From NCBI GenBank assembly GCA_035529075.1, contig DATKXK010000012.1:62001-126000 (forward strand): a DNA stretch of 64,000 bases, written 5' to 3'. Of the stretch, positions 28,977 to 33,046 are shown in pieces (position 1 is the stretch's first letter; the number at the start of each line of letters is the position of its first letter). The DNA comes from Acidobacteriota bacterium (GTDB lineage Bacteria > Zixibacteria > MSB-5A5 > GN15 > FEB-12). The notes beneath the pieces are model-generated. The model ran no database searches. It saw only the letters and a list, made by a program, of their open reading frames with translations, and had not been told where the DNA came from. The position numbers were made by a program, and so were the translations under genes.

Positions 28977-29315
28977 CTATCCCCTGAACAGCAGAAACAA
29001 CGAGCAGAAGGTCACCGTGACCGGCAAGGCCACCAGGAATGAACAATGAAGAAACAGGGTGGCCAGAAAAGCCAGGGCCAGGGCCGGAACCACCAGGTAC
29101 TTGAGCGTCGAGAAGGTGAGCTTGGCCACCTTGGACAGGAGCAGGACGGCCACGATGAACAGGACGGCGTAAGTGGCAATCAGCCCGTTCTGGCCGAAGT
29201 GCTCGACAATGAACGCCTTGATCGAGCTGACGACGCCCGAGTATTCTTCGGCCTTGAGGGAGGCCTGATCAGCCGCCTGCTTGATCTGGCTGAGTAGCTC
29301 AATATTCGACATCAT
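28977..29315 (-). CDS. small membrane protein, unrecognised
   Basis: 112 residues. A polar helical N-terminus (MMSNIELLSQIKQAADQASLKAEEYSGVVSSIKAF) is followed by three hydrophobic segments (around 46-60, 72-86, 90-110). The gene overlaps the end of the gene before it by 17 bases, so the two are likely co-translated. No family is recognised. Confidence 0.65.
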   Translation of the reverse strand: MMSNIELLSQIKQAADQASLKAEEYSGVVSSIKAFIVEHFGQNGLIATYAVLFIVAVLLLSKVAKLTFSTLKYLVVPALALAFLATLFLHCSFLVALPVTVTFCSLFLLFRG

Positions 29316-29532
29316 GGGCCTCTTCGAGTGGTTCGATGGTCAGCGAGGACTCCCCAACCCGGGTCAATCCGAGCATCCTGTTGGTGAGGAAGTTCTGGGT
29401 GGTAATCCACTTGTGGGAAACCTCCATAATCTCCTCCTGGTCGACTTCGCTGACCCAGTCGAGAACAATCTGGTCAATCCGCTTCTCTTCGACCGTGACG
29501 TCATCCATCGTCAGTACGAACTTTACTTTCAT
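29299..29532 (-). CDS. small acidic soluble protein, unrecognised
   Basis: 77 residues from ATG at 29532 (MKVKFVLTMDDVTVEEKRID...). It is acidic, likely alpha/beta, and contains VLDWVSEVDQEEIMEVSHKWITTQNFLTNRMLG. An AGGG stands before the ATG. The frame goes back to 29640 but the added part is rich in Gly, Ala and Thr and looks non-coding. It is followed at once by the overlapping membrane-protein gene, suggesting a two-gene unit. A long upstream gap holds the putative RNA gene. Confidence 0.6.
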   Translation of the reverse strand: MKVKFVLTMDDVTVEEKRIDQIVLDWVSEVDQEEIMEVSHKWITTQNFLTNRMLGLTRVGESSLTIEPLEEAHDVEY

Positions 29533-29744
29533 ACCAGCGTGCCCTGCGGTTGTGTTGTTCGTTCCGGAGGCACAGACTGCAACGGCAGTGCCGCGTGGAT
29601 GGGAGGGATTGCCGGGCCGCCTTAACACATTGCCTACCAATGAGTTAGTCTGTATTTTGTCGGCGTGTTGAACAACCGGGAAGTGTTTTCCGGGCGGTTT
29701 TTGGCCGGAGAGTATGGGGAGTTGCCCACTGGTTGTGGGTCAAG

Positions 29745-29776
29745 CAAAAGCCTGGCAGCCGGTTAGGCTGCCAGGC
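29745..29776 (-). terminator. intrinsic terminator, minus strand
   Basis: Perfect 11-bp stem GCCTGGCAGCC / GGCTGCCAGGC with a 5-base loop, followed on the minus strand by TTTTG. No protein gene ends here, so it is the 3' end of the putative RNA or an attenuator. Confidence 0.75.
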
Positions 29777-30206
29777 CGGTCGTATTGCGAAGTCTGCACC
29801 GGCGTCCAAAGGCACCGGTACTTCTCTTCCGGATCAGCGGTTTCTGCCGGGCGCCGTGCCCGCGAATAAGGCCGCGGGCTGATCTTGTCAGCCGGCCTGA
29901 TCGACCGGAGGCGCCTCGTCCCTGAATGAATCCAAACCTACCCGGAAGAGGGCAAAGGATGCTCTCCTTTGCGTTGAGGTTTCTGCAAGTGGTTCTTTCC
30001 CGGTCATTCGCCGCCGACCCGTGCATCCGGGCAACAGAGTACCGGCGGACGACCGACTATCATACACGTTCCTCCACGTTAGTGTTTTCCCTCAGACGAT
30101 GGAGGTGCGAGACGGGCTTTTTGCTACTGACCTTACTTAAGAAAAGATCAGCGCATGTGAGGTTTGCGCCGATTGATTACGAGGAAGTCGCCACTACCAT
30201 TCCTCG
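29746..30206 (-). ncRNA. putative structured non-coding RNA, about 460 nt
   Basis: A promoter-to-terminator unit without a credible protein frame. From the predicted start near 30205 the transcript begins with a perfect 8-bp hairpin (30179-30186 with 30200-30207). Other pairings in order: 30071-30076 with 30100-30105; a three-layer stem 30001-30005/30051-30055, 30011-30016/30043-30048 and 30018-30021/30028-30031; AAACCT/AGGTTT (29934-29939, 29977-29982) enclosing GCAAAGGA/TCCTTTGC (29952-29959, 29965-29972); GGCTGA/TCAGCC (29877-29882, 29888-29893), which competes with a CCCGCG/CGCGGG stem (29859-29864, 29873-29878). GCAGAAACC occurs twice, as if a loop motif were repeated. It ends at the terminator. 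I looked for signature blocks of RNase P, tmRNA, SRP, 6S RNA and common riboswitches and found none. Alternatively it is a long leader of the small gene at 29532. Confidence 0.6.
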
Positions 30207-30211
30207 TTAAC

Positions 30212-30240
30212 AGTATAACCCCGGAACCCATCCGCGTCAA
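30212..30240 (-). promoter_or_regulatory. strong sigma70-type promoter of the putative RNA
   Basis: Minus strand reads TTGACG, a 17-base spacer, then TATACT: five of six matches to each consensus hexamer and ideal spacing. It lies just downstream of the patatin gene and points away from it, so it does not serve that gene. Confidence 0.65.
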
Positions 30241-30361: not shown

Positions 30362-32986
30362 TCAGAACGCCAGTCCGGCGTTGAAGTGGAAACGGTCGGT
30401 GTCGCGGTTGACCACACCGTAACCGAATTCAAAGGGGCCGATCGGCGTGCTCAGCGCGACCGCGAAACCGTATCCGTGGCGAAGGTTGCGCAGTTTCATC
30501 TGGTCGGCGCTGCCGTAGACCTCGCCTATGTCGTACCGGGCGAACAGGTACAACCGCAGCGGCAGTCTGAGACGCACTTCCTGGTTAAGCAGCAACATCT
30601 TGTCGCCCGAAAGCTGGTCGCTGCGAAAACCCGAAAAGGAATCAGCGCCGCCGACATAGAACTTCTCCGAAGCGGGCAAGCCGGTACGGGAGATGCCCAC
30701 TGACAACCGGGGGTGATAGTTCAGGCGCGAGCCGAGGGGCAGGTAGACCTCCAGAGATGAGAAGAGCCGTGTGAATTCGATGTCGCCGCCGAGCGCCTTA
30801 CCGGCCATTCGTACCTCCAGGAGATGTTTGTTGCCGGTTTCGGGGAACGGTATTCGATTGAATGTCTCGAGGACCGACTGCAGACTGAGAGTGCGCAGTC
30901 CGAATCGGTTCCGGTTGCCGGTACGTTGGTCGGTGAGCCTGATCTCCTCGAATGACAGGGTGCCCGTCACGGTGCCGAGCCGGGCGATCTGCTGCCCCAG
31001 CCCTGCGGCGGCCCCGAACCGCTCCTCATTGCGGGTGCCGATCTCATCGTTGCCGCCGTCGAAGACAACACGGTCCCTTTGGTCGTAGTGCAGTCTCAGG
31101 TGAGTCGTCAGGTAGGTGGAGAAGATGCGGTGGGCCTGCAGTTCGGTAAAGTACCGTTGTCGTTCGTTGCCGTACTGAGCGTGGTTGAGGAATTCCATTC
31201 CGATTCCAAGGACGTTGTCGTCCAGCAGTTCGACAAACTGCTCGGAGTCGTATTCGTCGTGCCAGTGCCAGCCCAGACGGACCTGCGTATATTTCTTTTC
31301 CACCACGCCGATCCTGAGGATGACCCCGTCGTCCGTGGGTTCGAGGTGCAACGTCACCCGCTCGAACAGGTCGGTGGCGTAAACGTTGTCAATACCCCTG
31401 GAGGCCTTTTGCGTGGAGTACGGGTCGCCTCGTTGCAACGGGAAGTACGATCTGACGAGCCAGTCCTTGGTGCGCTCGTTCAGGTCGACGTCGGTACGCC
31501 GGATCCGCGCTTCGTCGATGACGATAGTGAAGTTGCTGCATTCCGGATCGATGCGGACGTCGCGGATGCGGGCCAGGTCGTAGCCTGCCGAGGCGTATAC
31601 GTCGACGATCCGATTGAGGCCTTCCCTGAGTTCGTGCGCGGTGACGACCGAATCGGTAAAGCTCAGTTGCGCGGCGAGCGTGGAGTCATCGAATATGCTG
31701 TCTCCCTCGAAGCGGAATACCACGTCGGCGAGCCTGCACGCTTCACGCGGTATTACCGTGAGGGAGACCGGCCCCTCGGTGAGCTTTATGTCCGTTTCTT
31801 CGTCACTGGTCGGCCCGATGTCGACCACCGTCTCAAAGAGGTTGAGGTCAAGGCTAAGGCGTTTGAGTTCGTCGAGCAACTGGCGGCGGGTGAAGCGGCG
31901 GCCGAGCAGGCCGGCGGTGATCCGATCGGCCAGCCGGCGGTCGGCGGTCGCGACCTGGACCTCGTCTATCCGTCGCGACAGCGTGTCGCGGCGGCGGTGC
32001 AGCAGGATTGCAATGCTGTCCGCGGCCTCGAGGCCGGCCCGATACCCAAGCTCGATGAGGGAATCCCGATGCTTGAAGTCCATGGTCGTGAACTCGTCGG
32101 GGCAGGGCTCGATGACGATATCAGCGCGACTGAGCTGGTCGGCCAGTTTATCGGCGGTCATGATCGTCGTCACCTGGCCGGCGATATCGACCGGGGTCAC
32201 GAGTTCTTCCCTGGCCACCAGCGGAGTGGTCGTGTTCACGGCCACGACCAGCGCCGATGTGTCACCCATGCGGCGGACGATGTCAACCGGCACCGGTGTC
32301 ACCATGCCCCCATCCATCAGGAGACGCGGTCCCTGCTCGACGCCGGTGAAGGCCAGGGGAAACGCCATGGTGGCCCGCATCGCATTGATGACGGACCCGC
32401 TGTCCAGGACTACCTCCTGGCCGCTGACAACGTCGGTGGCAATCGTTTTAAAGGGTATGGGGAAGCGGCCGAAGTCATTCCCGGCCACGTAACTCGCTCT
32501 GTTGGTCAACGAGGTCAGCAGGGTGGTGACTTCCTGCCCCGTTGTCAGGCCTCTGGGGATGTACGGGGTAAAACCGTCAAAGCGCACGGCCAGGATATGG
32601 TGCTCCCGGCCCTGACGCTTGGTGAGAAACATGGACGTACGATTGGGTTCGTTGCTGAGCAGCGACCCGAAATCGATCTTGCCGATTTCCTCGGTGAGCG
32701 CGGCCGAACTGTAGCCACAGGCGTACAGGCCGCCGACAATGCCGCCAATGGATGTCCCGGCTATGGCGGTTATGCAGATGTTGCGCTGCTCGAAGGCTCG
32801 CAGTATACCGACGGCCGCGAGCCCGCGAGCCCCGCCGCCCGAGAGAGCCAGTTTGATGCTCAAAGGTTCGCTGTCAGAATGGAGATCGGTACCGTGCAGA
32901 CCGCCGATGACGATCCGCTCGGCGGCGGCGGGTCCGCAAACCGCAAGCAGTAAGACTAAAAGGAGCCTGCCAGCGACAGATTTCAC
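30362..32986 (-). CDS. patatin-like phospholipase with POTRA and outer-membrane beta-barrel (PlpD/type Vd-like)
   Basis: About 874 residues. A signal peptide starts at the GTG at 32986 (MKSVAGRLLLVLLLAVCGPAAA); an earlier in-frame GTG at 33034 adds 16 polar residues before it. The patatin domain (~43-300) has the oxyanion SGGGARG (49-55), nucleophile Ser79 in GTSIGG, and the DGG of the Ser-Asp dyad (LLMDGGMVTPV). Next come a POTRA-like region (~390-560) and a C-terminal surface-antigen barrel (~570-874) ending in Phe (FHFNAGLAF). This is the architecture of type Vd autotransporters, which place or release a lipase at the surface. Downstream lies the putative RNA gene. Confidence 0.9.
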   Translation of the reverse strand: MKSVAGRLLLVLLLAVCGPAAAERIVIGGLHGTDLHSDSEPLSIKLALSGGGARGLAAVGILRAFEQRNICITAIAGTSIGGIVGGLYACGYSSAALTEEIGKIDFGSLLSNEPNRTSMFLTKRQGREHHILAVRFDGFTPYIPRGLTTGQEVTTLLTSLTNRASYVAGNDFGRFPIPFKTIATDVVSGQEVVLDSGSVINAMRATMAFPLAFTGVEQGPRLLMDGGMVTPVPVDIVRRMGDTSALVVAVNTTTPLVAREELVTPVDIAGQVTTIMTADKLADQLSRADIVIEPCPDEFTTMDFKHRDSLIELGYRAGLEAADSIAILLHRRRDTLSRRIDEVQVATADRRLADRITAGLLGRRFTRRQLLDELKRLSLDLNLFETVVDIGPTSDEETDIKLTEGPVSLTVIPREACRLADVVFRFEGDSIFDDSTLAAQLSFTDSVVTAHELREGLNRIVDVYASAGYDLARIRDVRIDPECSNFTIVIDEARIRRTDVDLNERTKDWLVRSYFPLQRGDPYSTQKASRGIDNVYATDLFERVTLHLEPTDDGVILRIGVVEKKYTQVRLGWHWHDEYDSEQFVELLDDNVLGIGMEFLNHAQYGNERQRYFTELQAHRIFSTYLTTHLRLHYDQRDRVVFDGGNDEIGTRNEERFGAAAGLGQQIARLGTVTGTLSFEEIRLTDQRTGNRNRFGLRTLSLQSVLETFNRIPFPETGNKHLLEVRMAGKALGGDIEFTRLFSSLEVYLPLGSRLNYHPRLSVGISRTGLPASEKFYVGGADSFSGFRSDQLSGDKMLLLNQEVRLRLPLRLYLFARYDIGEVYGSADQMKLRNLRHGYGFAVALSTPIGPFEFGYGVVNRDTDRFHFNAGLAF

Positions 32987-33046
32987 TTGCCAAATCAGCC
33001 TGACCGTAAATTCATTGTGCTCGTCGTCACGCACGGGAAATAAAAC

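Follow-up and report, generated by a model that had tools for sequence, protein, structure and literature searches.

The window analysed here, a stretch of 64,000 nucleotides, contains a gap of 827 bp, flanked by a gene for a patatin-Omp85 fusion (30362-33034) and by the small gene p29299 (29299-29535), and this gap holds a unit on the minus strand running from 30240 to 29744. An earlier note on this DNA, made by inspection of the letters, had described the unit as a putative structured RNA with its own promoter and terminator. In the direction of transcription, the features of the locus are:

30362-33034, minus strand: gene for a fusion of a patatin-like phospholipase with POTRA and Omp85 barrel domains; its synteny is kept in many Zixibacteria.
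30212-30240, minus strand: sigma-70-type promoter, TTGACG (30240-30235), 17 bp, TATACT (30217-30212); the same promoter is found in nearly all homologues.
30179-30208, minus strand: hairpin P1 at the expected start of the transcript, from folding and sequence inspection.
30147-30174, minus strand: hairpin P2 with AACCUCACA in its loop; the stem is compensated in three homologues (L152, L031, L162).
30095-30107, minus strand: CU-rich stretch CACCUCC, predicted partner of the Shine-Dalgarno (SD) sequence; homologues are slightly above shuffled controls.
30061-30075, minus strand: SD sequence GGAGG, 7 nt, AUG; conserved in ~48 homologues.
30004-30063, minus strand: short ORF opened by the conserved AUG, with 19 codons in the window copy and just two in 17 of the 47 homologues.
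30001-30055, minus strand: hairpin beginning 8 nt past the AUG, covarying in homologues.
29953-29971, minus strand: stem-loop CAAAGGAGAGCAUCCUUUG, with a similar element in L152.
29780-29792, minus strand: conserved 3' motif CUUCGCAAUACGA (consensus UCCGYAAUACGA), from the comparison of homologues.
29744-29777, minus strand: intrinsic terminator, a 12-bp stem with 9 GC pairs followed by the U-tract TTTTG (stem and tract at 29777-29749).
29299-29535, minus strand: p29299, a conserved protein of 78 aa present in 114 of 132 Zixibacteria genomes.

The promoter lies on the minus strand where the earlier note had placed it, and is the sole sigma-70-like match across 2 kb, with 0.5 expected. The terminator is likewise in its proposed location, its stem measuring 12 bp instead of the 11 bp then given. 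The predicted transcript of the unit amounts to ~460 nt in the window copy and to roughly 310-510 nt in relatives. The minus strand folds at -200 kcal/mol with a z of -5.3 against dinucleotide shuffles, which it beats in 100 cases out of 100; several strong hairpins are found, including the one noticed earlier at the 5' end (30208-30179), in agreement with the structured RNA then claimed. The plus strand of the unit also reaches a z of -4.2, because inverted repeats score on both strands, and the strand was therefore assigned from the promoter, the terminator, and the SD-AUG and motif features. The unit is very probably a genuine RNA gene.

Rfam 15 (4227 models) gave no gathering-level match in the window, the unit, or its homologues. 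For the unit itself nothing was found at E<1, and a limit of E 10 let in chance matches alone; the homologues yielded sub-threshold chance matches plus one ordinary tRNA (in L090). The unit belongs to no known family tested, and the novelty that the earlier note had made dependent on such a search stands. Its reading by eye that RNase P and tmRNA signatures are missing was correct as well: neither RNase P RNA (RF00010) nor tmRNA (RF00023) matches at the locus, and both genes were located elsewhere in the genome, the former at G000:C21 (285 bits) and a full copy of the latter at G000:C3 (186 bits). Phage records gave no match to the unit, and the literature searched yielded no described RNA from this lineage.

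A DNA similarity search with the RNA over 132 Zixibacteria genomes returned no convincing homologue outside its own genome. Since BLAST found no relatives even within the family, homologues were located by synteny through the neighbouring protein p29299. Among genomes with names, the search with this protein gave 25 loci, almost exclusively from Candidatus Zixiibacteriota, and the gene order patatin-Omp85 / p29299 with a gap of ~0.6-0.85 kb is kept in most loci. To these, 60 further upstream regions were added, and all were reduced to 68 distinct regions. About 50 distinct homologues share the same layout in sequences that are no longer alignable, and the layout is present in two families, f1 and f4, as well as in a single genome of f3. 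It starts with a promoter of the TTGACA-16/18-TATAAT type, with 96-163 nt from the expected start to the SD GGAGG; it continues with the AUG, a hairpin from about 6-14 nt past the AUG, and a structured centre; and it ends with UCCG(C/U)AAUACGA and a GC-rich terminator ~245 nt before p29299. A promoter followed 85-185 nt further on by an SD-AUG occurs in 36 of the 59 regions with enough sequence, versus 0.02 in shuffles. Among the inspected R2 matches lying apart from p29299, the full layout is found in L162 only; L151, L153, L154, and L157-L161, considered as RNA copies, look like ordinary terminators. The SD-hairpin model R1 separated true from chance matches only moderately. The unit appears to be a previously undescribed RNA gene, common to many Zixibacteria.

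The RNA, p29299, and the patatin-Omp85 gene adjoin in most genomes, and a short ORF with a terminator is the layout of an attenuator. The unit might accordingly serve p29299 (78 aa), which lies downstream, as a leader or attenuator, or else be a 3' UTR belonging to the patatin-Omp85 gene; a very long leader was also among the possibilities named in the earlier note. We consider this quite improbable. The RNA is equipped with a promoter and a terminator of its own, a separate sigma-54-like promoter serves p29299, and p29299 is present without the RNA in several other families. In G020 the p29299 locus is without the RNA, and the RNA is found in full on another contig, away from both p29299 and patatin, with its promoter, the hairpin with the CCUCAC loop, the SD-AUG, the next hairpin, AUCCGCAAUAC, and the terminator; judged by their translations, the flanking genes resemble PAPS reductases and M3 peptidases. 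This relocated copy, together with the occurrence of p29299 without the RNA elsewhere, points to a stand-alone gene that is neither leader nor 3' UTR; the fixed linkage to one downstream gene that would mark a leader or attenuator is not found. Of the earlier proposal, the stand-alone structured RNA is upheld by ~50 homologues, two covarying helices, the promoter, the terminator, and the relocated copy, whereas neither the long leader nor a catalytic role is supported. As for p29299 itself, it matches no family in Pfam or NCBIfam. Its upstream region (29576-29739, minus strand) carries the sigma-54-like promoter (TGGCA-N6-TTGCA type) and a TATGGG-N-CCCATA palindrome, probably the site of an enhancer-binding protein; both elements occupy the same place in most loci from L031 to L120, also where the RNA is absent.

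The structure of the RNA is conserved beyond the window. Whole RNAs from 48 homologues have a mean fold z of -4.0, with 44 of the 48 below -2, and the 60-nt hairpin window has a mean z of -2.4 versus -0.3 for control windows. The three-layer stem described earlier is indeed layered and lies exactly at 30055-30001; its counterparts past the AUG of the homologues have unrelated sequences with compensatory changes. Over 28 sequences 92.4% of the cells in this hairpin are paired and both sides change in 8 of 8 pairs, in an alignment built from helices folded per sequence, a choice that works in favour of the hairpin. Its covariation score is 1.13 versus 0.26 in shuffles, and far lower with the partner slid. 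When the same helix picking was applied to real and shuffled windows, a helix was obtained in 0.98 versus 0.77-0.86, the outer-pair fraction was 0.88 versus 0.70-0.77, and the score was -0.81 versus -0.49 to -0.55. In the terminator helix 100% of the cells are paired and both sides change in 7 of 8 pairs, with the pairing count flattered by the selection of the rows as good stems. Compensatory changes among homologues, the kind of evidence proposed in the earlier note as a check, are present in two helices, the post-AUG hairpin and the terminator. The motif GCAGAAACC, then reported as repeated, does occur twice in the unit (29986-29978 and 29847-29839); its conservation was looked for in the homologues and is absent.

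Two conserved elements had been overlooked: the 3' motif at 29792-29780 and the GGAGG-N7-AUG at 30075-30061. The latter, a ribosome-binding site with a minimal ORF, is the most informative feature of the unit. The distance from SD to AUG in the ~48 homologues is 5-10 nt, mostly 7-8. Of the 47 homologues, 17 have a stop right behind codon 2, at offset 6 counted from the AUG (10 TGA, 4 TAA, and 3 TAG), and 23 have one within three codons (these 17, one directly past the AUG, and five past codon 3), counts that do not represent independent events, as several of the 47 are related and a number of the ATGGAGTGA cases may go back to a common ancestor. The out-of-frame offsets from 4 to 11 have 0-3 stops each. 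Codon 2 itself is variable (GAG, GAA, AAG, ATC, AGA, ACA, GAT), and L088, which lies outside the SD search pattern, also reads UAUGGAGUAA. An SD and an AUG with a stop within about 2-6 codons, the arrangement of a minigene, are found in about half of the homologues and not in the window copy with its 19 codons. Among the sequences compared, the predicted docking site is a general feature, and a stop directly behind it is common without being general. Structure or protein binding would not favour stops in one frame, and we therefore take the early in-frame stops as evidence that ribosomes read the site. Docking of ribosomes on the RNA is probably functional.

No other sequence of the unit is as well conserved as the SD-AUG, and some homologues have frames longer than the 19 codons of the window copy, some of them of at least 50 codons and several without a stop in the stretch examined. 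This might suggest a gene for a small protein, flanked by long untranslated regions, in which the short frames would code for a rapidly evolving peptide. Such a gene is very improbable, since the peptides of the 47 homologues are alike only in their first residues, with no conserved peptide from the AUG and nothing common further on, nearly half of them end within three codons, and the conserved signal downstream is RNA structure. The reading frames inside the unit also lack any Pfam match.

The 5' region invites comparison with antisense regulators. The RNA might act in trans like Staphylococcus RNAIII, with C-rich loops (CCUCAC, CACCURUCAUCC) pairing to the SDs of target mRNAs, while its own SD and AUG would be incidental or belong to a fast-evolving peptide. 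CCUCAC is found in 25 of 43 RNAs versus 4 in shuffles, and an ACCURUCAUC-like sequence in 10 of 43 versus 0. CCUCAC is mostly unpaired and located in the 5' region, where in four RNAs (the window copy, L152, L031, and L162) the AACCUCACA-type loop of P2 remains constant while the stem is swapped. RNAIII targets ribosome-binding sites with such C-rich loops (PMC2837412). The complement GUGAGG, however, is not in excess at the ribosome-binding sites of the 1.64 Mb examined from this genome (ratio 0.79), and antisense action leaves the frame-specific stop codons unexplained. Hfq was not found in 13 genomes (G000 and 12 relatives), a point to be read with the caution that RNAIII-type regulation may not need it. 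On balance, a purely antisense RNA is possible but unlikely.

The GGA triplets near the start site bring to mind a protein sponge, i.e., a CsrA-binding RNA of the CsrB/RsmZ kind that would use the GGA in the SD and past the AUG as sites. The unit is stand-alone like those RNAs, has GGA elements, and belongs to a CsrA-containing genome; CsrA was found in 12 of the 13 genomes searched, the SD GGAGGA already provides a GGA site, and many homologues continue with AUGGA. We nevertheless give this little credence, for GGA is not enriched (391 versus 365 in shuffles), the window copy reads AUGAUA at its start site, and a sponge predicts neither early in-frame stops nor a hairpin at a fixed distance; the conserved SD-AUG-stop layout further distinguishes the unit from CsrB/RsmZ. 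Apart from the nature of the unit, the finding of CsrA in 12 genomes and of Hfq in none of the 13 indicates that the small-RNA biology of these bacteria may not rely on Hfq.

On the best reading of the unit, its mode of action is closest to that of a regulatory RNA with a minigene inside. Minigenes, or two-codon ORFs, are known in the leaders of axe-txe (mg2), B. subtilis ycbK, and the EHEC LEE operons, and the ribosome docked on them shields the RNA from nucleases or affects the next cistron (PMC8708949). Like many copies of the unit, they consist of a strong SD, an AUG, one further codon, and a stop. They act in cis ahead of a protein gene, whereas the minimal ORF of the unit is found inside a terminated stand-alone RNA with no cistron behind it. 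As known minigenes affect RNA stability or the next cistron, and as there is no next cistron here, we read the docking as control of a trans-acting RNA. The combination of a minigene with such a regulatory RNA is not described in the literature searched, a scope that leaves most subscription journals outside.

The RNA would be transcribed from its own sigma-70 promoter and ended at its own terminator, and its conserved core would be a ribosome-docking module made of a strong SD and AUG, often with a near-immediate stop. Ribosomes would start and stop at this site and yield no functional peptide. The front of an initiating ribosome stands at about +13 to +15, and the post-AUG hairpin would be positioned at this front edge. 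Docked ribosomes may stabilise the RNA or fix one of two folds, with the SD either free or paired with the upstream CU-rich stretch. Predictions place most of the SD in pairs (mean 0.79), often with this stretch; upstream pairing is 0.80 in the homologues versus 0.69 in shuffled controls, a slight excess that gives no more than a weak signal for sequestration of the SD by the CU-rich stretch. The RNA may then regulate in trans, by way of conserved elements that are exposed, CCUCAC and UCCGYAAUACGA among them. Sequence comparison establishes the gene with its limits, the conservation of structure and of the SD-AUG, and the early stops specific to one frame; the binding of ribosomes, its switching or protective effect, and the action in trans are inferred. 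We lean towards such a stand-alone regulatory RNA, with ribosomes that dock and soon terminate controlling its fold or lifetime; any specific downstream role is proposed with low confidence. More tentatively, the unit might represent a new class of translation-sensing stand-alone RNAs, on which a ribosome loads and ends within 1-2 codons, its occupancy setting the fold or lifetime of a regulator of other genes. It is unusual for an otherwise non-coding RNA with its own terminator to contain a conserved ribosome-binding site and early stops under selection, and this raises the testable question of the ribosome as a ligand, not a translator, of a regulatory RNA.

Among known RNAs, RNAIII of S. 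aureus is similarly long and multi-hairpin with C-rich loops. It contains an internal ORF that encodes a real peptide. The unit has no sequence or Rfam relation to it, and target sites were not found for the unit. To our knowledge, a ribosome landing site is not a defining feature of raiA motif RNA, OLE, ROOL, or GOLLD. These RNAs (for raiA motif RNA, or ModT, see PMC11706538) are lineage-restricted, stand-alone, and highly structured like the unit, which differs in having no Rfam match and constitutes an apparently undescribed family; the phylum itself is known for the most part through genomes assembled from metagenomes. Its layout and helices persist while the sequence drifts past the reach of BLAST, and sequence-based searches would miss RNAs of this kind. 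The 3' motif UCCGYAAUACGA presumably bears a likeness, possibly by chance, to the GGUAAUACGG stretch in the 530 loop of 16S rRNA.
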